Of a stretch of 40,530 nt of DNA, positions 13,725-24,128 are shown piece after piece. Each line of letters starts with the position of its first letter. Within the stretch, counting starts at the first letter, position 1. Both the position numbers and the translations under genes were made by a program. The stretch is from Clostridia bacterium (GTDB taxonomy: Bacteria; Bacillota; Clostridia; Oscillospirales; Acutalibacteraceae), in the NCBI GenBank assembly GCA_017626295.1, contig JAGAJB010000027.1:1-40530 (forward strand), read 5' to 3'. The notes under the pieces were generated by a model. The model was given only the letters and a program-made list of their open reading frames with translations, did not search any database and had not been told where the DNA came from.

Positions 13725-14543
13725 ATGAAAAAGATAATTGCATTATGTTCTTTAATCCTTTGTGTAGCGGTACTTCTTACTGCGTTTACTTCTTGTGGTG
13801 ATAATAAAGATGACAATCCAAAGAATGAAACTGAATCTTACGTCGCTTCCGTTACAAACGGTGAGTTTTCCTTTACCGCAGAAGTCGGCGAGAAGGAAAC
13901 GGTAATCAAAAATAACGGTAAAGTTTATCAAACTTTGAAATATCCTGTTAATCCCGGTTATCCTTTCGATTATAATTATGCCAAAGAGCGTTCCCAGTTT
14001 ATTGATATGAATTTTGACGGTCAGCCGGACTTTTATATTGCTGTAAGCGCTGAGGCTGAAACAATATACTACTTCTGTTGGCTTTTCAATGCCACAACCA
14101 AGCAGTTTGATTACTCTGTTTCCCTTTCAGGATTAACCAATATTTCTGTTGATGCTGAAAAACAAGTTATCTACTCTACTTTTAAATACAGAGATACAAC
14201 TAAAATTGTCAGTTACAGATGGGTTGACGGTCAGTTGAAGAATGACGAGATTTATGATACGGCTTCCGATACAATACCAGCAGAAGTTACTGAAGCCGCT
14301 AAAGAAAACGCTATCGGAACGGTAACAAAACCTGCACTTACAACAAGTAAACCTAAGCCTACCGAAGAAAATAAAAAACCCACCAAGGATAATAATACGT
14401 CAACAGGCACTACTGCAAACAGCGGTACTGCTTCCTCTGCATCAACAACAGCCGAAGATAAACCGCTTAATACAACAACAACCGAACCCAAGACAGGCGG
14501 TATTCAAATTGAAACCGGCAATATTGATGCGGGTTGGTTCTAA
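13725..14543 (+). CDS. Putative lipoprotein with Thr-rich C-terminal region
   Basis: 272 residues. The signal peptide MKKIIALCSLILCVAVLLTAFTSC ends at lipobox Cys24. Residues about 35-185 form a globular region with an aspartate motif FIDMNFDGQPDFYIAVS resembling a calcium-binding or repeat-protein loop. From about 190 to 260 the chain is low complexity in Thr, Ser, Lys and Pro, a flexible spacer. I do not recognise the family. GGAGG precedes ATG 13725. It is followed 16 bases later by a membrane-protein gene, likely in the same operon. Confidence 0.85.
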   Translation: MKKIIALCSLILCVAVLLTAFTSCGDNKDDNPKNETESYVASVTNGEFSFTAEVGEKETVIKNNGKVYQTLKYPVNPGYPFDYNYAKERSQFIDMNFDGQPDFYIAVSAEAETIYYFCWLFNATTKQFDYSVSLSGLTNISVDAEKQVIYSTFKYRDTTKIVSYRWVDGQLKNDEIYDTASDTIPAEVTEAAKENAIGTVTKPALTTSKPKPTEENKKPTKDNNTSTGTTANSGTASSASTTAEDKPLNTTTTEPKTGGIQIETGNIDAGWF

Positions 14544-14559
14544 GATAAGGAGAATAATA

Positions 14560-14904
14560 ATGAGCGATAATATTTTTACTAATAACGAAAATGAAATTGT
14601 TTCTGAAAAGGAAACTGCTGCAAACAACAATGATAAAAAAGGCGGCGAATTTAAGTTCTTTAAATCCTGTTCCGCATCATTAAAAAGATTTTCTGTAATA
14701 CTTTTTGTTATAAATTTATTCCTTGCTATTACTATTGTTGGTGTGGCTGTCGTTTTACTCGGTGTTTATATCGGTGTTGAAATGCTCGCACTTCTTGCAC
14801 TTCCTGTTTTAACTCTTGCGGTTATTCTGGTCGTTTTGGCAAGATTTATTTCCGCACTTGTATACGGTTTTGCAGAAATCGTTGAAAAACACGAGAATAA
14901 ATAA
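14560..14904 (+). CDS. Two-helix membrane protein of unknown function
   Basis: 114 residues. A hydrophilic N-terminal 35 residues rich in Asn, Glu and Lys is followed by two adjacent hydrophobic helices, about residues 43-70 and 74-100, and a short charged tail. No family is recognised. ATG 14560 is chosen because AAGGAG lies eight bases upstream. Shares a transcript with the lipoprotein at 13725, so the two may act together at the membrane. Confidence 0.78.
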   Translation: MSDNIFTNNENEIVSEKETAANNNDKKGGEFKFFKSCSASLKRFSVILFVINLFLAITIVGVAVVLLGVYIGVEMLALLALPVLTLAVILVVLARFISALVYGFAEIVEKHENK

Positions 14905-14942
14905 TTTTTATACACTTTTATTAAATTTTTATTCATTTTCGC

Positions 14943-14971
14943 TTGACAAATCATTCTTGCAGGCGTAAAAT
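14943..14971 (+). promoter_or_regulatory. Promoter of the aromatic operon
   Basis: TTGACA at 14943-14948, a 17-base spacer and TAAAAT at 14966-14971. Expected start of transcription is near 14978, giving a leader of about 200 bases before the first large gene. Confidence 0.88.
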
Positions 14972-15003
14972 ACCAACTATCATATTTTTGAGAGGTGATA
15001 CGG

Positions 15004-15078
15004 ATGTTCCGTAGTTTATACAATCGATTTTATTACAGTTCTATGGATTGTCTGTGTGCCACTCGTTCTTGCAAGTAA
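15004..15078 (+). CDS. Aromatic attenuator leader peptide
   Basis: A 24-codon reading frame. It starts MFRSLYNRFYYSSM and ends in TAA at 15076-15078. GAGGTG lies about seven bases before ATG 15004. It has two Phe and three Tyr, with Phe10-Tyr11-Tyr12 in a row, in a leader directly ahead of the phenylalanine and shikimate genes. Position relative to the two alternative hairpins downstream matches classical ribosome-mediated attenuation. A small hairpin (15000-15012) overlaps the start codon and may tune initiation. No leader-peptide homology can be claimed from sequence this short; the case rests on arrangement. Confidence 0.72.
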   Translation: MFRSLYNRFYYSSMDCLCATRSCK

Positions 15079-15150
15079 TTGCAACGATTAAGTATATAGC
15101 CAGTCCGCATTCTGCTATGCTTTTAAAGTATAACGGTTTGCGGATTTTTT
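15044..15150 (+). promoter_or_regulatory. Attenuator: antiterminator and competing terminator
   Basis: Antiterminator: 15044-15059 pairs with 15092-15107, 15 of 16 positions paired (several G-U), with one C-T mismatch, enclosing the hairpin TTGCAA/TTGCAA at the leader stop codon. Terminator: 15103-15109 pairs with 15138-15144 and continues inward through CTG/CGG and TATGCTT/AAGTATA, followed by six T (15145-15150). The two share 15103-15107, so they exclude each other. A ribosome stalled at codons 10-12 would leave most of the antiterminator free; one reaching the stop codon would cover the loop and favour the terminator. Confidence 0.75.
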
Positions 15151-15181
15151 ATTTAAATTTTCTAAAAAATAGGAGTTTGTT

Positions 15182-16372
15182 ATGATTTCAGAAAAAATGC
15201 TTGAATTAGGCAAAAAAAGTTCCGTAATACGCGAGATTTTCGAGTACGGCAGAGTTCGTAAAGCGGAAATAGGTGCAGAAAACGTGTTCGATTTCAGTTT
15301 GGGTAACCCAAGCGTACCTGCACCGCAGAAAGTAACCGATGTTATGAACAGACTTATTGCAGAAACACCGGCAGAAGTTCTTCACGGTTATACCTCCGGC
15401 CCCGGCGATTTAAATGTGAGAACTGCAATTGCGGATTATATAAAAAATAAATATTCGGTTAACGCAACGCCCGGTCTGATTTATATGACCTGCGGTGCTG
15501 CGGCTTCGCTTACAATTACGCTTAATGCAATTACTGAACTCGGTGACGAGGTTATAGCATTTGCACCGTTTTTCCCTGAATACAGAGTTTTTGTTGAGCA
15601 AGCAGGCGCAAAGTTAGTAACAGTTCCTTGCAAAACCGAAGATTTACAAATTGATTTTGACGTCTTGGAGAAGTCAATTAACTCTAACACAAAAGCAGTT
15701 ATTATTAACTCTCCCAATAATCCCTCGGGTGTTATAATTCCCGAAAAGGATATAATCAGATTAACCGAATTACTTAAAGCAAAACAGCAGGAATACGGCA
15801 AAGAAATATTCCTTATTTCAGACGAACCATACAGAGAACTTGTTTTCACGGGTGAAAAGGTTGCGTATATTCCCGCATACTATGATAATTCATTTGTTTG
15901 CTATTCTTATTCAAAGGCGCTTTCTTTACCCGGTGAAAGAATAGGTTATATTTTCGTTTCACCCACTATGAAAGAATGCGGCGACGTTTTTGCAGCCGTT
16001 TGCGGTGCAGGCAGAGCCTTGGGTTATGTTTGCGCTCCAAGTCTTATGCAGTATACAATTGCCGAGTGCCTTGATGATACCGCTGACGTTTCGGTTTATG
16101 AGAAAAACAGACAGATTCTTTATGACGGACTTACGGACATCGGATACACCGTTATTAAACCCGACGGTGCTTTTTATATGTTCGTTAAATCACTTGAAGA
16201 AGATGCATATAAATTCTACGAAAGAGCCAAGAAATTTGAACTTCTTCTTGTTCCCGGTGATGATTTCGGTTGTCCCGGTTTTGTAAGAATTGCTTATTGC
16301 GTAGACACAGATTTAATTGAACGTTCACTTCCTGCATTTAAAGAACTTTTCGAGGATTACAAAAATGACTGA
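15182..16372 (+). CDS. Class I/II PLP-dependent aminotransferase
   Basis: Fold-type I aminotransferase, 396 residues. Key parts are the N-terminal FSLGNPSVPAP, the SPNNPSG motif, the Asp/Tyr pair in ISDEPYRELVF, the PLP lysine in SYSKALSLPGERIGY and a C-terminal Arg in GFVRIAYC. As first gene of an operon making phenylpyruvate, it most likely transaminates phenylpyruvate (and perhaps 4-hydroxyphenylpyruvate or prephenate), but aspartate specificity cannot be ruled out. AGGAG is six bases before ATG 15182. It overlaps pheA by eight bases. Confidence 0.9.
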   Translation: MISEKMLELGKKSSVIREIFEYGRVRKAEIGAENVFDFSLGNPSVPAPQKVTDVMNRLIAETPAEVLHGYTSGPGDLNVRTAIADYIKNKYSVNATPGLIYMTCGAAASLTITLNAITELGDEVIAFAPFFPEYRVFVEQAGAKLVTVPCKTEDLQIDFDVLEKSINSNTKAVIINSPNNPSGVIIPEKDIIRLTELLKAKQQEYGKEIFLISDEPYRELVFTGEKVAYIPAYYDNSFVCYSYSKALSLPGERIGYIFVSPTMKECGDVFAAVCGAGRALGYVCAPSLMQYTIAECLDDTADVSVYEKNRQILYDGLTDIGYTVIKPDGAFYMFVKSLEEDAYKFYERAKKFELLLVPGDDFGCPGFVRIAYCVDTDLIERSLPAFKELFEDYKND

Positions 16373-17465
16373 TTACGATAAAAAATTTCAAGAGGCACGA
16401 AAGGCTATCAGCGATATAGATAAAGAGATTGCCGTCCTTTTTGAAAAAAGAATGGAAGCGGCAGTTCACGTTGCCGAATACAAAAAAGTAAACGGTGTTC
16501 CCATTGAGGATATTGTTCGCGAAAACCACCTTATTGAAACTAACAGTATGCTGGTTAAAAATGACGAAATTCGTTCGTATTACGTAAACTTTCTTAAAAA
16601 TACAATGAAACTTTCCAAAGATTATCAGCATAAAATTATAGACGGTACAAGGGTGGCTTTTTCGGGTGTAAAAGGTGCTTTTGCTGAAATTGCCGTAAAA
16701 CGCATTTTCCCTGATGCCGTTGCTGTTCCTTATTCCGATTTTAAATCCGCTTATAAAGCCGTCGAAAACGGAGAATGTGAAGTTGCCGTTTTACCTATCG
16801 AGAACAGTTATGAGGGCGACGTTGCAAGGGTTATGGATTTAACATATTTCGGCTCACTCTTTATTAACGGCGTATATGATATGGCTGTTGAACAGCATTT
16901 ATTCTCCACTCAGGATTCGGACAGTAAAACAATAAAGAAAGTTATAAGTCACCCTCAGGCGCTGGGGCAGTGTGCCGAGTTTATTGAGGAAAAAGGCTAT
17001 TTAAAGGAAGAAGCAGTTAATACCGCCGTTGCCGCAGAACTTGTTTCCAAAAGTAACGACAGTTCTTTGGGTGTTATTTGCAGTCTTGAAGCAGGCAATG
17101 AATACGGTCTTAAACTTATTGACAGAAAAATAAATAAAAACAGTACAAATACAACACGCTTTGCAGTTTTCTCACGAATTCCCAGGGATAATACACCCGA
17201 CCAGAACAATTTTATTGTTTTATTTACGGTTCGTGACGAAGCGGGCTCTTTAGGTAAGGCAATTTCTGTTTTCGGTGAATGCGGATATAACCTTAAAGCA
17301 CTAAAAAGCAGACCTTCAAAAGATGTTATATGGAATTATTATTTCTTCCTTGAGGGTGAGGGTCATCTTACGGAAGAAGCAGAAAAATCAATGCTTGAGA
17401 AACTTTCGGAAGTTTGTACTAACGTAAGATTAGTGGGCAGATATTCCAAAGAGCAAAGTATTTAA
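16365..17465 (+). CDS. pheA: Bifunctional chorismate mutase/prephenate dehydratase
   Basis: Converts chorismate to prephenate and then phenylpyruvate; 366 residues. An AroQ-type chorismate mutase covers about residues 1-88 (IDKEIAVLFEKRMEAA...KK). The prephenate dehydratase domain follows, with the catalytic Thr264-Arg265-Phe266. A C-terminal ACT domain (about 278-355) has EAGSLGKAI and LKSRPSK, near the GALV and ESRP phenylalanine-binding motifs, so feedback inhibition by Phe is expected. The start is ATG 16365, inside the end of the aminotransferase gene; an upstream in-frame start would overlap far more. Many Clostridia split these domains, so the fusion is worth noting. Confidence 0.95.
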   Translation: MTDYDKKFQEARKAISDIDKEIAVLFEKRMEAAVHVAEYKKVNGVPIEDIVRENHLIETNSMLVKNDEIRSYYVNFLKNTMKLSKDYQHKIIDGTRVAFSGVKGAFAEIAVKRIFPDAVAVPYSDFKSAYKAVENGECEVAVLPIENSYEGDVARVMDLTYFGSLFINGVYDMAVEQHLFSTQDSDSKTIKKVISHPQALGQCAEFIEEKGYLKEEAVNTAVAAELVSKSNDSSLGVICSLEAGNEYGLKLIDRKINKNSTNTTRFAVFSRIPRDNTPDQNNFIVLFTVRDEAGSLGKAISVFGECGYNLKALKSRPSKDVIWNYYFFLEGEGHLTEEAEKSMLEKLSEVCTNVRLVGRYSKEQSI

Positions 17466-17498
17466 AAGGAGGCAGACGGTGTACCGTCAGGCTTTATG
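17465..17498 (+). promoter_or_regulatory. Unusual aroB translation-initiation region
   Basis: The strong AAGGAGG (17466-17472) is 23 bases from the aroB ATG (17496), too far to act directly. Between them GACGG/CCGTC (17475-17479 with 17484-17488) can fold into a hairpin that would shorten the gap to nine bases. Alternatively GTG 17479 opens a six-codon reading frame whose TGA (17497-17499) overlaps the aroB ATG, with the AAGGAGG at the right distance. Either arrangement could set aroB translation. Confidence 0.6.
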
Positions 17499-18509
17499 AT
17501 TTTAACAGTTAATACTTCAATGGGCAGTTATGATATTGTTCTTGAAAGAGTCGTAATAGAAAATATTAAACCTTTTTGTAACACAGAAAAACGCGCCCTC
17601 ATAGTTACTGACAGCGGTGTTCCCGAAGAATACTCGAAAACCGTAGCCGCACAGTTCAACAAAAGTATAATTAAAACAATTCCCCAAGGTGAAAAAAGCA
17701 AATGCTTTGATACCTACAGAGAATTACTTGAACTTATGAGCGAAAATGAATTTTCGCGCTCTGACTGTGTTGTTGCAGTGGGCGGCGGTGTTGTAGGCGA
17801 CCTTTCGGGATTTACGGCTTCAACATATATGAGGGGGATTGATTTTTACAATATCCCCACAACACTTTTGTCACAGGTTGATTCTTCAATAGGCGGTAAA
17901 ACTGCCATAGATTTCGGCGGTTACAAAAACACTGTGGGCGCATTTTATCAACCAAAAGCAGTTCTTATTGACCCCGATGTTTTAAAAACACTTGATGAAC
18001 GCCAATTAAACAACGGACTTGCTGAAAGTATCAAAATGGCGGCTACTTCCGATAAAGTTCTTTTTGACCTTTTGGAGAATGATAATGCTTACGAAAACAT
18101 TGATACGGTTATTGAGCGTTCCCTTAAAATAAAAAGGGCAGTTGTGGAAGAGGATGAGAAAGAGTCGGGCTTGAGAAGAGTTCTTAATTTCGGTCACACC
18201 GCAGCACACGCTATTGAAACTGCAACAGGTTTAGGTGACCTTCTTCACGGCGAATGTGTGGCAATAGGTATGCTTGCATTCTCTTCACCGGAAGTTCGTG
18301 AGCGTTTGGTTAAAGTGTTATCTAAATATAATTTACCCGTTGATTTCAATTTCACTTCCGATGAACTCCTTTCGGCTCTTCGCCACGACAAAAAGGCTGA
18401 CAGTACAGGCGTAAATGCCGTGTTGGTCAATGAAATCGGCAGTTTTGAATTTAAGTTTATAGAGTTTTCGGAACTTGATACAATTATTAAGGAGGCGTAT
18501 TTAAAGTGA
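17496..18509 (+). CDS. aroB: 3-dehydroquinate synthase
   Basis: Second shikimate step, DAHP to 3-dehydroquinate, NAD+ and metal dependent; 337 residues, typical. Motifs: the NAD-binding region VVAVGGGVVGDLSGFTAS, PTTLLSQVDSSIGGKTAID, metal-ligand Glu in NNGLAESIK, and ligand His residues in FGHTAAHAIE and LLHGECVAIGM. ATG 17496 is the only standard start in frame near the N terminus; its leader is unusual (see the 17465-17498 entry). It overlaps aroC by four bases (GTGA). Confidence 0.95.
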   Translation: MILTVNTSMGSYDIVLERVVIENIKPFCNTEKRALIVTDSGVPEEYSKTVAAQFNKSIIKTIPQGEKSKCFDTYRELLELMSENEFSRSDCVVAVGGGVVGDLSGFTASTYMRGIDFYNIPTTLLSQVDSSIGGKTAIDFGGYKNTVGAFYQPKAVLIDPDVLKTLDERQLNNGLAESIKMAATSDKVLFDLLENDNAYENIDTVIERSLKIKRAVVEEDEKESGLRRVLNFGHTAAHAIETATGLGDLLHGECVAIGMLAFSSPEVRERLVKVLSKYNLPVDFNFTSDELLSALRHDKKADSTGVNAVLVNEIGSFEFKFIEFSELDTIIKEAYLK

Positions 18510-19600
18510 AAAACACTTTCGGAAACAGCGTAAGCGTAACGCTTTTCGGTGAAAGCCACGGCGTTGCAATCGGTGCTGTTATTGACGGTCTCCCTGCAGG
18601 TATCGAAGTTAATGAAGATTTTATTGCTCATCAACTTGATTTAAGGCGCCCTGTTGGTAAAATATCCACACCCCGACAGGAAGCAGATAAATTTACAATA
18701 TTAAGCGGTGTTTTTAACGGTAGAACTACGGGTACTGCTTTGTGCGTAGTCATTCCTAACGAAAATACTAAATCAAAAGATTATGCATCCTCTTACGGTA
18801 AAGCACGACCCGGTCACGCAGATTTCACAGCGTTTTCAAAATATAACGGTTGTGAGGATTACCGAGGCGGCGGACATTTCAGCGGAAGAATTACCGCAGG
18901 CCTTGTTGCCGTGGGTGCTGTTGCTATTGAAACTCTTAAAAATAAAAATATTCATATAGGTACTCATATCAAGAGATGTGCAGGCGTTGAAGATATTGAG
19001 TTTTCCGATTACAACAAAGATATAGATACACTTTCAAACAAGGTGTTTGCGGTACTTGACGGTAAAAAAGCCGAGGAAATGGTTTCTGCTATTGAAAAAG
19101 CCGCTGCAAATGGCGACAGCGTAGGCGGTATTCTCGAAACGGTTGTAACAGGTTTACCTGTGGGTATCGGTGAGCCTTGGTTTGACAGTGTTGAAAGTAT
19201 GCTTTCTCATATATTATTCTCAATACCTGCAATAAAGGGTGTTGAGTTTGGTGCAGGTTTTGAGTGTGCTGATATGTTCGGCAGTGAAATGAATGATAAT
19301 TTTACTTATGAAAACGGCGTAGTTAAAACACTTACGAATAACAACGGCGGTATTAACGGAGGTATAACAAACGGTATGCCTGTTTTATTTAAATGTGCCG
19401 TTAAACCCACACCCTCCATTTCCAAAGAACAGGAAACTGTTGATTTCATTAAAGGCGAAAATGCAGTTTTAAGTACAAAAGGCAGACACGACCCTTGTAT
19501 AGTACACAGAGCAAGAGTTGTTGTTGACAGCGTTACCGCCATTGTTCTTTGTGATTTACTTTCTCAAAAATTCGGTACTGATTGGCTTGGTGAAAAATAA
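18506..19600 (+). CDS. aroC: Chorismate synthase
   Basis: Final shikimate step, EPSP to chorismate, using reduced FMN; 364 residues. Motifs: TLFGESHGVAIG at the N terminus, RPGHADFTAF, the GGGHFSGRITAG signature and TKGRHDPC. The start is GTG 18506 with AAGGAGG about ten bases upstream, overlapping aroB. The stop overlaps the aroE ATG by one base. Confidence 0.96.
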   Translation: MKNTFGNSVSVTLFGESHGVAIGAVIDGLPAGIEVNEDFIAHQLDLRRPVGKISTPRQEADKFTILSGVFNGRTTGTALCVVIPNENTKSKDYASSYGKARPGHADFTAFSKYNGCEDYRGGGHFSGRITAGLVAVGAVAIETLKNKNIHIGTHIKRCAGVEDIEFSDYNKDIDTLSNKVFAVLDGKKAEEMVSAIEKAAANGDSVGGILETVVTGLPVGIGEPWFDSVESMLSHILFSIPAIKGVEFGAGFECADMFGSEMNDNFTYENGVVKTLTNNNGGINGGITNGMPVLFKCAVKPTPSISKEQETVDFIKGENAVLSTKGRHDPCIVHRARVVVDSVTAIVLCDLLSQKFGTDWLGEK

Positions 19601-20850
19601 TGGAATACGGTTGTATAGGTGAACATCTTTCGCACAGTTTTTCAAAAGAAATTCACAATGCCCTGGCTGATTATGATTACATTCTTAAGGAATTAACAAG
19701 AGAAGAGTTGCCGTTATTTTTAATTAACAGAGAGTTTAAAGCAATAAATGTCACTATCCCTTATAAACAGGATGTTATCCCTTTTCTTGATTTTGTTTCC
19801 GACGAGGCGAAATCTATAAATGCAGTTAATACCATTGTAAACCGTGACGGTAAACTTTACGGATATAATACTGATTTTTACGGTCTGAAGTCCCTTATTG
19901 AACGGGAAAATGTTTCGTTGAACGGTAAAAAGGTGGCTATATTGGGTAGTGGCGGCACTTCAAATACCGCAGTAGCAGTTGCTGACAGTATGGGTGCTGA
20001 AACTGTAAAAAAAGTTTCACGAAATAAAAAAGAGGGCTACATAACTTACGAAGAACTTTACGAAGTTTTTTCGGACTGCGAAATTATATTAAACACAACT
20101 CCTTGCGGTATGTTTCCCAATATCGGCACAGCGGCAGTTGAATTAGATAAACTACCGAAAGTCGAAGCAGTTTTTGATGCGGTGTATAATCCGCTTAAAT
20201 CTAAACTTATTTGCGATGCAAAAGAGCGCGGTTTAGTGGCAACAGGGGGACTGTATATGCTTGTTTCACAGGCTGCATATGCGGTTGAAAAGTTTATAGA
20301 GTCGCCCGTTAACGATTGTGAAGTTGAGAAGATTTTTAAAAATCTTTATAAAAACAAAATGAATATTGTTCTTATCGGTATGCCTGCCAGCGGAAAAACT
20401 TCTGTGGGAAAAGAACTTGAGAAAGTTTTAAATAAGTCCTTTGTTGATACTGATGATTTAATAGTAGAAAACACAAAAAAATCTATTTCCGATATTTTCA
20501 AAGACAGTGGTGAAAAGGCTTTCAGGGAAATAGAAAAAGATGTGATTTTTAATATTTCTAAAGAAAATAACAAAGTTATTGCCACAGGTGGCGGAGCAGT
20601 TCTTAATAAAGAGAATATTGATATTCTTAAAGAAAACGGCAGAGTTTATTTTATAAACAGACCTTTGGAAATGCTTATTGCTACTGATGACAGACCCTTA
20701 TCAAGTAACAGGGCAGACCTTGAAAAAAGGTTTAACGAGCGTTATTCAATGTACGTTAACTCTGCAGACGTTGCTATAGACGGCACAGGAACAGTTAAAC
20801 AAGTGGCAGAAAGAATTGAGGCGGATTATAATGAATATTCTTGTAATTAA
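19600..20850 (+). CDS. aroEK: Fused shikimate dehydrogenase-shikimate kinase
   Basis: One 416-residue polypeptide covering two steps. Residues 1 to about 250 are shikimate dehydrogenase: shikimate-binding SHSFSKEIHN, catalytic Lys in VTIPYKQD, NTDFYG and the NADP loop GSGGTSN. From Met254 to the end is shikimate kinase: Walker A GMPASGKTS, DTDDLI, FREIE, GGGAVLN and the lid arginine in DRPLSSN. No Shine-Dalgarno precedes Met254, so the kinase is not separately started. Fusing these steps may channel shikimate. The reading frame is continuous with no sign of an assembly-joined stop. Confidence 0.95.
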   Translation: MEYGCIGEHLSHSFSKEIHNALADYDYILKELTREELPLFLINREFKAINVTIPYKQDVIPFLDFVSDEAKSINAVNTIVNRDGKLYGYNTDFYGLKSLIERENVSLNGKKVAILGSGGTSNTAVAVADSMGAETVKKVSRNKKEGYITYEELYEVFSDCEIILNTTPCGMFPNIGTAAVELDKLPKVEAVFDAVYNPLKSKLICDAKERGLVATGGLYMLVSQAAYAVEKFIESPVNDCEVEKIFKNLYKNKMNIVLIGMPASGKTSVGKELEKVLNKSFVDTDDLIVENTKKSISDIFKDSGEKAFREIEKDVIFNISKENNKVIATGGGAVLNKENIDILKENGRVYFINRPLEMLIATDDRPLSSNRADLEKRFNERYSMYVNSADVAIDGTGTVKQVAERIEADYNEYSCN

Positions 20851-21265
20851 CGGACCTAACCTTAATATGTTGGGTATCAGAGAACCGGACATTTACGGCA
20901 AAGAAACTTATAATTCTCTGGTTGAAAAAATCGAAAAATACGCAAGCGAAAAGAATGTGTCTGTTAAATGTTATCAGTCCAACCACGAGGGCGATTTGGT
21001 GGATAATATTCAGTTTGCATACGGCGTATTTGACGGTATAGTTATTAACCCCGGTGCTTACACTCACACAAGTATCGCAATTCTTGATGCGTTAAAATCC
21101 GTTAATATTCCTGCGGTTGAAGTACATATTTCCGATGTTTCTTCAAGGGAAGATTTCAGGCAAATTAGTTATGTCCGTAACGCCTGTTTCAAAACCATTT
21201 GCGGTAAAGGAACAGACGGCTATCTTGAAGCAATAGACGCTTTAATTGAGAAGGTGAGTGGATGA
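20831..21265 (+). CDS. aroQ: Type II 3-dehydroquinate dehydratase
   Basis: Dehydrates 3-dehydroquinate to 3-dehydroshikimate; dodecameric type II enzyme of 144 residues. Motifs: GPNLNMLGIREP with Arg17, catalytic Tyr22 in IYG, NPGAYTHTS with Asn73 and His79, and EVHISD. ATG 20831 is placed six bases after GAGGCGG inside the aroEK end; the upstream TTG in frame is not supported. It overlaps aroEK by 20 bases and aroA by four (ATGA). Confidence 0.95.
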   Translation: MNILVINGPNLNMLGIREPDIYGKETYNSLVEKIEKYASEKNVSVKCYQSNHEGDLVDNIQFAYGVFDGIVINPGAYTHTSIAILDALKSVNIPAVEVHISDVSSREDFRQISYVRNACFKTICGKGTDGYLEAIDALIEKVSG

Positions 21266-22467
21266 ACGTTTCCGTAGTGCCTTCAAAAGCCCGTGGTGAA
21301 ATGCAAGCGCCCGCTTCCAAGAGTTACGCTCACAGACTTCTTATATGTGCAGCACTTTCTCAGGGTACGAGTGTAATAGAGAATATCGGTACAAATGACG
21401 ACATTCTTGCAACGGTATCTTGCCTTAAAGAGTTAGGTGCTGAAATAGTAATTAACGGCACAACCGCAACCGTCAGAGGAATAGATTTTACTCATAAAAA
21501 AGAGAAACTCAGCCTTTTCTGTAATGAAAGCGGCAGTACTTTAAGATTCTTAATTCCTCTTTGTCTTGTGATTTCACAAGAGGTTGAATTTACAGGCAAA
21601 GGCAGACTGTTATCCCGTCCTCAGAGCGTGTATGAGGAACTTTTTAAAGAAAAAGGTTGTTGCCTTGAGAAGTGCGAAAACTCTCTTTTTGCAAGCGGTG
21701 AACTTAAAAGCGGTACTTATAAAGTTCGCGGTGACGTCAGCAGTCAGTTTTTAACAGGTTTACTGTTTACTTTACCTCTTTTAGAGGGTGACAGCGAGAT
21801 AGTTTTAATTACTAAACTGGAAAGCGCACCCTATGTTGATATAACAATTGACGTTCTTTCAAAATTCGGTGTTAACGTTATTAAAACCGAATACGGATTT
21901 TTTATAAAAGGCTCACAGAAGTATAAACCCTGTAATATTACCACCGAGGGCGATTGGTCTAACGCGGCTTTCCTTGATGCATTTAATCTTGTGGGCGGTA
22001 GCGTAACAGTAAAAGGACTGAATAGCGACAGTTTCCAGGGCGATAAGATTTACAGAGAGTTTTACGGTAATCTTTCTTGTGATAATCCTCAGTTTGATAT
22101 TTCTGACTGTCCCGATTTAGGCCCTGTGCTTATTACTTGCGCTGTATTAAAACACGGCGCGCTTATTAAGGGTACAAACAGACTTAAAATAAAAGAAAGT
22201 GACAGGGGACAGGCAATGGCACAAGAACTAAGAAAGTTCGGTGTCCATATTGAAATCGGTGACGATTTTATAAAAATCCCCGATGTAGTTCCCCAAAAAC
22301 CGACGGCGGTTATTGATTGTTGTAACGACCACAGAATTGCAATGTCTTTTGCAGTTTTGTGTAGTGTAACAGGCGGTGTTTTAAAAGATGCCGAATGTGT
22401 AAATAAAAGTTATCCCGACTTTTTTAAGGATATTAAAAACCTCGGAATACAATATAAAATTATCTGA
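21262..22467 (+). CDS. aroA: 3-phosphoshikimate 1-carboxyvinyltransferase (EPSP synthase)
   Basis: Joins shikimate-3-phosphate and PEP to give EPSP; 401 residues. Key parts: SKSYAHR with Lys20, NESGSTLRFL, LLSRPQSVY, catalytic Asp in DCPDLGP, KESDRGQAMAQEL and CNDHRIAMSFAV. The NESGSTLRF segment replaces the GNAGTAMRP of class I enzymes, so it is probably a class II-like or divergent enzyme. Translationally coupled to aroQ by the ATGA overlap. Confidence 0.94.
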   Translation: MNVSVVPSKARGEMQAPASKSYAHRLLICAALSQGTSVIENIGTNDDILATVSCLKELGAEIVINGTTATVRGIDFTHKKEKLSLFCNESGSTLRFLIPLCLVISQEVEFTGKGRLLSRPQSVYEELFKEKGCCLEKCENSLFASGELKSGTYKVRGDVSSQFLTGLLFTLPLLEGDSEIVLITKLESAPYVDITIDVLSKFGVNVIKTEYGFFIKGSQKYKPCNITTEGDWSNAAFLDAFNLVGGSVTVKGLNSDSFQGDKIYREFYGNLSCDNPQFDISDCPDLGPVLITCAVLKHGALIKGTNRLKIKESDRGQAMAQELRKFGVHIEIGDDFIKIPDVVPQKPTAVIDCCNDHRIAMSFAVLCSVTGGVLKDAECVNKSYPDFFKDIKNLGIQYKII

Positions 22468-22482
22468 TTGGAGAGATTTAAT

Positions 22483-23511
22483 ATGGCAATGAATTTCAAA
22501 AGAAAACTCCCCATTCCGATGGATATAAAGGAACAGTATCCTCTTACCCTTCAGATGGCAGAGCAAAAAGCAAAAAACGATGCGGAAATTAAGGCTGTTT
22601 TTACAGGCGAGTCAGACAAACTCCTGCTTGTTATCGGACCTTGTTCGGCAGATTCTAAAGAGCCTGTTCTTGATTATATTTCACGCCTTGCAGAAGTTCG
22701 TGAAAAGGTGAAAGACAGAGTTGTTATTGTTCCGCGTATTTATACCAATAAACCCCGTACAACAGGTTCGGGTTATAAGGGTATGCTTCATCAACCCGAC
22801 CCCAATGAAAAACCCGATATGCTTCACGGTATTGTTGCTATCCGTGAACTTCATATGTGTGCTCTTAAAGAGTACGGTTTTTCTTGTGCTGACGAAATGC
22901 TTTATCCTGCTAACTACCGCTATCTTTCCGATTTGCTTTCCTATGTTGCAGTAGGCGCTCGCTCGGTTGAAAACCAGGAACACCGCCTTACAGCAAGCGG
23001 ATTCGATATTCCCGTTGGTATGAAAAACCCCACAAGCGGTGACCTTTCAATAATGATGAACGCAATTATGGCAGCACAAAACAGCCACACCTTCCTTTAT
23101 AGAGGGTGGGAAGTTGAAAGCGAAGGCAACCCCTACGCCCACGCAATTATGCGCGGTTTCGTTGACCGTGACGGACACAATATTTCTAACTATCATTACG
23201 AAGATTTACTTAACCTCAGCGATACTTATGCAAAATTTGGTCTTAAAAATCCTTCTTGTATTGTTGATGCCAACCATGCAAACTCAGGTAAAAAATATCT
23301 TGAACAGGTTCGTATTACAAAAGATATTCTTTACAGTCGCGCTCATAATGATGATATTAAGAAACTCGTTAAGGGCATTATGATCGAAAGTTACATAGAA
23401 GACGGCGCACAGAAAATCGGTGACGGCATTTACGGTAAATCAATTACCGACCCCTGTCTCGGTTGGGAAAAAACCGAAAGACTTATCCTCGATATTGCAG
23501 AACAGGCATAA
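22483..23511 (+). CDS. 3-deoxy-7-phosphoheptulonate (DAHP) synthase, AroG type
   Basis: First committed step, PEP plus erythrose-4-phosphate to DAHP; 342 residues. It matches the type I-alpha (Escherichia coli AroFGH) family: VIGPCSADS, RIYTNKPRTTGSGYKG, DEMLYPANYRYL, GARSVENQEHR, PVGMKNPTSGDL and DANHANSGKK. Family members are feedback-inhibited by one aromatic amino acid, but which one cannot be read here. GGAGAG lies about seven bases before ATG 22483. Last gene of the operon, with a terminator directly after it. Confidence 0.94.
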   Translation: MAMNFKRKLPIPMDIKEQYPLTLQMAEQKAKNDAEIKAVFTGESDKLLLVIGPCSADSKEPVLDYISRLAEVREKVKDRVVIVPRIYTNKPRTTGSGYKGMLHQPDPNEKPDMLHGIVAIRELHMCALKEYGFSCADEMLYPANYRYLSDLLSYVAVGARSVENQEHRLTASGFDIPVGMKNPTSGDLSIMMNAIMAAQNSHTFLYRGWEVESEGNPYAHAIMRGFVDRDGHNISNYHYEDLLNLSDTYAKFGLKNPSCIVDANHANSGKKYLEQVRITKDILYSRAHNDDIKKLVKGIMIESYIEDGAQKIGDGIYGKSITDPCLGWEKTERLILDIAEQA

Positions 23512-23513
23512 CA

Positions 23514-23546
23514 AAAAGAACCTTGTCGGTGGACAAGGTTCTTTTT
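23514..23546 (+). terminator. Terminator of the aromatic operon
   Basis: A14-bp stem (23514-23527 with 23532-23545) with a GGTG loop, ending in five T. The A tract before the stem would let it also act on the opposite strand. Confidence 0.92.
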
Positions 23547-23583
23547 AAATGCAAAATGCAGAATGCAAAATGCAGAATTTCGG
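23547..23583 (+). repeat. Heptanucleotide cassette 2
   Basis: AAATGCA, AAATGCA, GAATGCA and AAATGCA, then GAATTTCGG. It has four heptads and an AATTTCGG tail as in cassette 1, but with a different heptad. It is followed by GGCTTACGCCGATTTTTATTGCG, loosely matching the tail of the other cassettes. It starts right after the operon terminator. Confidence 0.85.
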
Positions 23584-23685
23584 GGCTTACGCCGATTTTT
23601 ATTGCGTTTTGCGTAAGCAAAATATATCGCATTCATTGAATATATCGCGCGTCAGCATATCGCACCGTAGGTATATCGCTATTAT

Positions 23686-23748
23686 AATTGCAAATTGGAA
23701 ATGGCAAATGGCAAATTTCGGAACTGCGTTGGCGATTTAAAATAAAGT
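23686..23748 (+). repeat. Heptanucleotide cassette 3 with tail
   Basis: AATTGCA, AATTGGA, AATGGCA and AATGGCA, then AATTTCGG, then AACTGCGTTGGCGATTTA. The tail matches that of cassette 4 (4893-4928, minus strand). It leads straight into the hairpin array through AAGTTGCGG, just as cassette 1 does at 4652. Confidence 0.85.
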
Positions 23749-23768
23749 TGCGGTGTTGCGAAGCCTTA

Positions 23769-24111
23769 TCATCCCTGTGCGCTTTTGCGGATAGGGAGGG
23801 GGACCGCGACAGCGGTGGTGGGTAGTTCTCTTGCGGTAATTCTTCAGTCGGATAGAACAATATTTTATCATCCCTGTTTCGACTTTGTCGGAATAGGGAG
23901 GGGGACCGCGACAGCGGTGGTGGGTAGTTCTCTTGCGGTAACTCTTCAGTCGGATAGAACAATATTTTATCATCCCTGTTTCGACTTTGTCGGAATAGGG
24001 AGGGGGACCGCGACAGCGGTGGTGGGTAGTTCTCTTGCGGTAATTCTTCAGTCGGATAGAACAATATTTTATCATCCCTATTTGCAAGCAAACAGGGATG
24101 ATAGGCTTCGC
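23769..24111. repeat. 102-bp tandem hairpin array (three units plus inverted end)
   Basis: Units start at 23769 (99 bp, shorter first hairpin), 23868 (102 bp) and 23970 (102 bp), with a partial unit from 24072. Each holds the hairpin TCCCT...AGGGA, a second hairpin ACCGC/GCGGT, and TCGGATAGAACAATATTTTA. The array is bordered by inverted copies of TGCGAAGCC-TATCATCCCTGTT (near 23754 and 24090-24111). Because 102 is divisible by three, long frames stay open on both strands, but these repeat a 34-residue unit and are not judged real genes. Confidence 0.9.
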
Positions 24112-24128
24112 ATCGACTAACTAATCAC

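Follow-up and report, generated by a model that had tools for sequence, protein, structure and literature searches.

A predicted ribosome-mediated attenuator responsive to phenylalanine and tyrosine at the head of a shikimate operon in Clostridia

Introduction

How does a Clostridia bacterium of the family Acutalibacteraceae match the synthesis of its aromatic amino acids to supply? Amino-acid operons of Firmicutes are usually under T-box or TRAP control. The window studied here (the whole stretch of DNA that was analysed, 40,530 nucleotides) carries a phenylalanine/shikimate operon for which a preliminary description, made from the bare sequence, had proposed control by a leader peptide in the manner of pheL and trpL of Proteobacteria, whose leaders form mutually exclusive hairpins. 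The genome (2.43 Mb in 42 contigs) is 96% complete, and several relatives in the genus come from herbivore gut samples. Here we present comparative evidence that the leader very probably acts as a ribosome-mediated transcription attenuator, which would sense charged tRNA-Phe and tRNA-Tyr through a short leader open reading frame (ORF).

Results

An eight-gene operon and the parts of its leader

Profile matches identify the following genes, which are separated by intergenic gaps of -17 to +30 nt and bear out the phenylalanine/shikimate operon claimed in the preliminary description:

15182..16372, + strand, PLP-dependent aminotransferase (AT; NF005305, PRK06836)
16365..17465, + strand, chorismate mutase-prephenate dehydratase (CM-PDT, pheA type; PF00800 and PF01817 over cut-off)
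17496..18509, + strand, aroB, 3-dehydroquinate synthase
18506..19600, + strand, aroC, chorismate synthase
19600..20850, + strand, shikimate dehydrogenase-shikimate kinase fusion (aroE-aroK; PF08501 and PF01202 over cut-off, both halves below NCBIfam cut-offs)
20834..21265, + strand, aroQ, type II dehydroquinase
21262..22467, + strand, aroA, EPSP synthase (272 bits, just below the TIGR01356 cut-off of 287)
22480..23511, + strand, DAHP synthase (aroFGH type)

Just 3' of the operon, at window positions 23633-24120, one peptide block occurs about three times over in overlapping ORFs on both strands, an indication of tandem DNA repeats.

The stretch upstream of the aminotransferase gene contains these elements:

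14943..14971, + strand, sigma-70-type promoter TTGACA-17-TAAAAT (11 of 12 consensus matches)
14989..15006, + strand, segment 1, the Shine-Dalgarno (SD) region and start codon, able to pair with segment 2, to which its complementarity covaries
14990-14999, + strand, ribosome-binding site GAGAGGTGAT
15004..15078, + strand, leader peptide ORF of 24 codons, MFRSLYNRFYYSSMDCLCATRSCK*
15025..15036, + strand, conserved core CGA-TTT-TAT-TAC (Arg-Phe-Tyr-Tyr), the presumed stall codons
15045..15059, + strand, segment 2, the antiterminator 5' arm
15092..15106, + strand, segment 3, the antiterminator 3' arm, overlapping the terminator 5' arm
15102..15150, + strand, intrinsic terminator, with a 3:4 stem (15102-15109/15139-15146), an inner hairpin and a U tract (15145-15150)

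The promoter is the best of 33 sigma-70-like matches in 14500-23700, a region whose shuffled versions give 22.1 +/- 5.1 such matches, and by eye a TTGACA...TA.AAT pair also precedes the genus homologues. The antiterminator comprises 14 standard pairs with a single mismatch (15051/15100), to which T15044-G15107 can be added. It is mutually exclusive with the terminator, as 15102-15106 are common to both, and 15107 too if T15044-G15107 is counted. A simple terminator scan does not have the 15102-15150 terminator among its matches because it accepts a single stem closed by a loop of 3-8, whereas the stem here is interrupted. The leader RNA (15038-15155) folds at -37 kcal/mol, compared with -22.3 +/- 3.0 for dinucleotide shuffles, none of 200 being as stable; the fold of 15038-15107 has a z score of -5.7. 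Each part named in the preliminary description is thus present where it had been placed: the consensus promoter, the ribosome-binding site, the 24-codon leader with Phe-Tyr-Tyr (15028-15036), the antiterminator of 15 pairs when T15044-G15107 is included, and an overlapping terminator, whose stem shares 15102-15107 and is followed by its T run. What that description overlooked is the 1:2 pairing of the SD region with the antiterminator 5' arm: in folding, 14989-15006 is able to pair with 15049-15064.

The leader is kept within the genus and recurs beyond it

A DNA search of 22 genomes of the genus gave strong matches (E<=8e-19) in 14, all of which have the leader; at E<=10 chance-level matches appear in all 22. 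The aminotransferase gene itself is found at E<=1e-50 in 15 of these genomes and is preceded by the leader in 14, the exception being G021, in which there is no such leader in the 500 nt 5' of the gene. R-F-(F/Y)-Y is present in all 14 genus peptides and is followed, after three or four residues, by an Asp-Cys-Leu that the antiterminator arm encodes. One genome with no aminotransferase match at that threshold (G003) carries a leader of diverged sequence, MIRTAYFFNRFMYYISADRLRA*, immediately 5' of its pheA-type gene, first seen as a weak match (E 0.072), and the remaining six genomes lacking the aminotransferase gave no leader match in the same search. We note that in one relative (L011, G007:C3) the aminotransferase starts 291 nt after the leader end, much further than in the others, and that the extra stretch between leader terminator and gene looks like an inserted small repeat element.

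Within the 14 genus leaders alone, covariation of the antiterminator is no better than in shuffles, and more distant leaders were therefore sought. A covariance model built from the 14 (R1) matched 26 of 398 genomes of the family, and one built from 34 leaders (R2) matched 37 of 394 genomes of the order and 7 of 391 of the class. These counts are lower bounds, since filters were strict and eight candidates were scored per genome; the samples overlap. Order-search matches were inspected singly for 31 of the 37 genomes. On the opposite strand of true leaders, too, the models give matches of up to 31.8 bits, so the weakest tabulated matches (33-35 bits) rest on inspection; opposite-strand matches were dropped, ten in one search and one in the R1 family search. 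The resulting table, compiled one by one, holds 65 homologous leaders, which come from nine of the families in the class (f1, f15, f16, f17, f19 and f20, with f34, f40 and f99 outside the order); the diverged G003 leader and L075 (E 0.028) were kept out of it. The first gene after the leader is an aminotransferase in 35 cases (for example after MLQKFYYYYYYFNKDCLFSSKEQHA*), pheA (CM-PDT) in 15 (MLFTARFYYFKQDCPFSAIFG*), DAHP synthase in 14 (MKNKFYFYFYYFKKGCPSSVISED*) and unclassified in one (L108).

A survey that started from the genes and used no RNA model found leaders on the sense strand in front of 6 of the 25 aminotransferase genes and 5 of the 30 DAHP synthase genes sampled, and on the antisense strand at none of the 55. 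Among the five DAHP synthase leaders, L188 is possibly of another type; L144, an aminotransferase locus, is absent from the model matches. We note that L188 (before DAHP synthase in G111) has a short ORF, MSKVMNAYNAFTYFYFRSWGYYFSGLVVVH*, which contains aromatic runs and does not resemble the leader type described here. By the simple criterion of this survey, 19 of the 25 aminotransferase genes taken from the family lack the leader, and no acceptable one was seen at 7 of 8 homologues that are more distant; many of the sampled DAHP synthase genes are probably not first in their operon. The element is patchily distributed.

Both stems covary, and the ribosome-binding site covaries with the antiterminator

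Across 34 leaders, 85.7% of antiterminator pairs are standard and 9 of 14 pairs show two-sided changes. The covariation score is 0.323 as against 0.208 in shuffles (0 of 500 reach it), and pairing falls to 25-39% when the partner is shifted by one to three columns. These antiterminator counts lean favourable, because the distant leaders were picked by a model that holds the antiterminator and the Phe/Tyr core. At the terminator stem base 97.1% of cells are paired, with two-sided changes in 3 of 8 pairs and a score of 0.193 as against 0.138 (0 of 500). Covariation of both stems, on which the preliminary description had staked its reading, is thus found across the wider family sampling; for the antiterminator it does not extend to the genus taken alone.

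The pairing of the SD region with the antiterminator 5' arm provides an independent test, since the SD region lies outside both covariance models. Over 64 leaders (L108, whose leader start lies at a contig end, was left out of the pairing tests), pairing between the SD region and the antiterminator 5' arm of the same leader averages -15.7 kcal/mol, compared with -11.0 +/- 0.37 for permuted partners (0 of 5,000). The result holds with one leader per similarity cluster (0 of 20,000 for each of 50, 30 and 22 clusters), and there is no significance for a control window taken 26-50 nt upstream of the start (4,414, 2,746 and 2,030 of 20,000). In all 64 leaders the stretch that pairs best with the 5' arm overlaps the SD, and the complementary solutions differ by group: GGAGGCAG with CTGCC, CAGA with TCTG, TAGA with TCTA. 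This covariation supplies a full set of 1:2, 2:3 and 3:4 pairings in which the ribosome-binding site serves as segment 1.

A small frame rich in phenylalanine and tyrosine codons

Phenylalanine is encoded in all 65 leaders, and both phenylalanine and tyrosine in 64, so the small frame with Phe/Tyr codons that had been expected in relatives is indeed kept. Start codons are ATG in 59 and GTG or TTG in 6, and an SD was found by pattern in 61; SD, start codon and frame together suggest that the leader ORF would be translated. Phe and Tyr make up 55% of the codons between start and segment 2 in frame, compared with 16% and 18% in the other frames. Because the model included part of this stretch, the count was also restricted to codons upstream of the model's first position, where, over 64 leaders, the figures are 39% in frame and 14% and 16% out of frame, with an average of 8.6% in nine coding sequences (CDSs) of the window; start codon and frame were chosen by a score favouring aromatic runs, and the frame content is to that extent selected. 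The leaders use TTT 176 times, TTC 31, TAT 148 and TAC 71, and tryptophan occurs once in the 65 peptides, beyond segment 2.

We also note that the arginine before phenylalanine in the R-F core (window 15025-15027) is encoded by CGA in 29 of the 30 leaders that have R-F, and that CGA accounts for 9 of 158 arginine codons in the nine window CDSs. A slow codon and a constraint at the RNA level are both possible explanations of this preference.

Ribosome position and folding

A ribosome covers about 15 nt ahead of its P site. In 53 of 64 leaders the distance from the end of the last aromatic codon to segment 2 is 5 or 8 nt (the value of 25 for L058, whose start was set by hand to an upstream GTG, is invalid), so that a ribosome stalled on this codon would reach with its front edge to about the first bases of segment 2. 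A ribosome at the stop codon has its front edge short of segment 3 in 53 of 63 leaders; in 4 the edge coincides with the first base of segment 3 and in 6 it falls within that segment, L058 being left out of folding by ribosome position. When only RNA downstream of the ribosome is folded, 62 of 63 leaders have a more probable terminator with the ribosome at the stop codon than with it stalled. This treatment replaced a first model that allowed pairing across the stalled ribosome, in which the terminator was lower in the stall than at the stop in only 37 of 64.

In naked RNA, the terminator outweighs the 2:3 pairing in 57 of 63 leaders, and 1:2 has a mean probability of 0.63. In the stalled state, equilibrium folding places the antiterminator ahead of the terminator in 29 of 63 (mean 0.51 vs 0.65); as this state lies near balance at equilibrium, the switch would need the co-transcriptional order, in which the antiterminator is transcribed first.

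A separate tyrosine-rich leader and T-boxes in the same genome

The only prephenate dehydrogenase match of the genome, tyrA on contig C30 (L191:402), has its own leader, MKTNFAVTYYYYYYLVK* (L191:241-373), with six consecutive Tyr codons and one Phe codon, a promoter-like TTGACA-17-TACTAT and a strong intrinsic terminator. Its stems are of another design than those of the window leader, for in the fold the Tyr codons pair with the stretch just after them; it is a single case in one genome. A leader ahead of tyrA was also sought in cases where it precedes DAHP synthase, at 10 of the 13 further TyrA-matching loci (L191 and L108 aside); three weak matches (three aromatics in six) appeared to lie inside coding sequence, and none resembled a leader. 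In 8 of 10 scanned loci, tyrA appears to follow an aroA-like coding sequence directly.

The genome also has 11 T-box matches (L031-L041), six of them over cut-off; judging from the proteins encoded, we take one to precede a pheS-like gene and others to precede thrS, alaS and ileS genes and two trpB-like genes. Uncharged tRNA-Phe may therefore be sensed in one genome by both a T-box and a leader peptide. The trpE domain (Anth_synt_I_N, PF04715) was not found in this 96%-complete genome, and this may be why an operon for the common pathway listens to phenylalanine and tyrosine only. Given the missing trpE domain and the two trpB-like genes after T-boxes, the host is a probable tryptophan auxotroph or indole user.

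Discussion

Our results support the reading of the leader as a ribosome-mediated attenuator, as first proposed in the preliminary description, with the covarying stems and the conserved Phe/Tyr frame as the comparative evidence. The case is built from sequence comparison, which establishes the parts, their conservation, the covarying stems, the spacing and the codon content; from these we infer the dependence on phenylalanine and tyrosine supply, the kinetic order of folding and the transcription of all eight genes from the promoter at 14943-14971. The naked leader RNA would fold as 1:2, the SD region with the antiterminator 5' arm, plus the terminator, so that the default would be off with the leader start site masked. 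A ribosome running to the stop codon would pass segment 2 and usually halt just short of segment 3; segment 2, under or behind it, could re-pair only with segment 1, and the terminator would form for that reason. A ribosome stalled on the Phe/Tyr codons would instead sit between segments 1 and 2 and keep them apart, its front reaching about as far as the first base of segment 2, so that segment 2 would pair with segment 3, the terminator would lose its base and the eight-gene operon would be transcribed. The working principle would be that of a classical leader-peptide attenuator, whose defining features at the level of sequence are present here.

We consider it improbable that the attenuator is gated mainly by translation initiation or ribosome availability, with 1:2 reporting ribosome loading and the aromatic codons tuning the stall position. 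The covariation of the SD region with the 5' arm is a strong pairing signal that would fit such gating, as would the naked RNA, in which the terminator prevails and 1:2 is well populated; but under it the Phe/Tyr codons would not need their near-fixed distance from segment 2, and the leader of tyrA would not be nearly Tyr-only.

That the leader is instead some other known device, whether a T-box, a TRAP-like protein target or a metabolite riboswitch, we regard as very unlikely. T-box and TRAP control is the usual pattern in Firmicutes, and T-boxes do occur elsewhere in this genome, yet an Rfam scan of the window gives no match at gathering score, the best being RF00513 (Trp_leader) at 19.2 bits (E 0.14, cut-off 41). 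Rfam Phe_leader, which we take to be RF01859, has no match at E up to 10 on 14900-15200 (four families listed). The T-box model RF00230 has no match in the window, none of its 11 matches in the genome lies on contig C3, and 18 leader loci gave none up to E 5. On these scans of window and leader loci we rejected T-boxes, riboswitches and the other RNA families already known. A scan of 20 aminotransferase loci (L144 and 19 that lack the leader) and of 19 among the 30 DAHP synthase loci (L188 and 18 that lack it) likewise found no T-box, and among known RNA families only tRNAs and one ZTP riboswitch. Equally hard to credit is a functional small protein gene with an ordinary terminator, the operon being driven by another promoter: such a gene, too, would show a small conserved ORF and a good promoter, SD and terminator, but the peptides differ in length and in sequence except in the aromatic core and where the antiterminator arm is encoded, the constraint sits in RNA pairing, and the element stays 5' of Phe/Tyr pathway genes although the first gene changes.

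The predicted attenuator resembles E. coli pheL-pheA in having a leader ORF with consecutive end-product codons followed by an intrinsic terminator, and pheL stands before a fused chorismate mutase/prephenate dehydratase. It differs from pheL in that both Phe and Tyr are encoded and the ribosome-binding site is segment 1. In our own folds the SD region of E. coli trpL pairs with the stretch just before the terminator and that of pheL pairs weakly with the leader end; masking of the SD is thus not itself new, and what sets the present leader apart appears to be that the SD serves as segment 1.

The preliminary description held a peptide-based attenuator to be unusual in Firmicutes, which stands; such control is nevertheless not unknown there, given a leucine-rich ilv attenuator in Staphylococcus aureus (PMC5794164), His leader peptides in Bacillus (PMC2965389) and a predicted Phe-codon uORF before a terminator and aroF (DAHP synthase) in Acholeplasma, the uORFC-13-1 motif (PMC8632094). 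As outlined in those sources, the ilv and His leaders are, like the present one, Firmicutes leader-peptide attenuators that stand in for T-boxes; they concern other amino acids and lineages, and the outlines contain no RNA family recurring before three different first genes. The uORFC-13-1 motif, compared here by its description, is given as 24 sequences from Acholeplasma and unassigned environmental sources only, and the account of the motif does not describe it for Clostridia (PMC8632094). The list of Merino, as cited in PMC1173090, has predicted terminator/antiterminator pairs before tyrA operons, some of them Gram-positive; in that citing text it carries no leader peptide or codon-based mechanism, and in the part of its table covered here we recognised no member of the present lineage. 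For Actinobacteria, the relevant text of PMC1262725 describes leader peptides and reports having seen no conserved RNA structure in front of phenylalanine or tyrosine genes. In our searches, which covered open-access PMC papers, we recognised no description of the present element.

We lean, by a small measure, towards a broader reading, in which these leaders form a previously undescribed RNA family of Clostridia: a Phe/Tyr attenuator whose protector is its own ribosome-binding site, which moves between first genes, and which shares a genome with the tyrA leader and the T-boxes. If this is true, one helix would both mask initiation and preset termination, and the design, with the SD as segment 1, predicts that initiation and termination are coupled through it. 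The element would move between aminotransferase, pheA and DAHP synthase genes but keep its place at the head of Phe/Tyr synthesis. Within this one genome, biosynthesis would be sensed by ribosome stalling, with a separate Tyr-rich attenuator for tyrA, and tRNA-charging enzymes by direct binding of tRNA, through T-boxes before the Phe-tRNA synthetase gene and others. The RNA model is ready for use in annotation, where it would mark Phe/Tyr pathway genes together with a small ORF that is easily missed in metagenome-derived genomes, and a leader-peptide attenuator that recurs in nine families of a gut lineage, with T-boxes beside it in one genome, would offer a natural test of why cells use two devices to sense the same tRNA.
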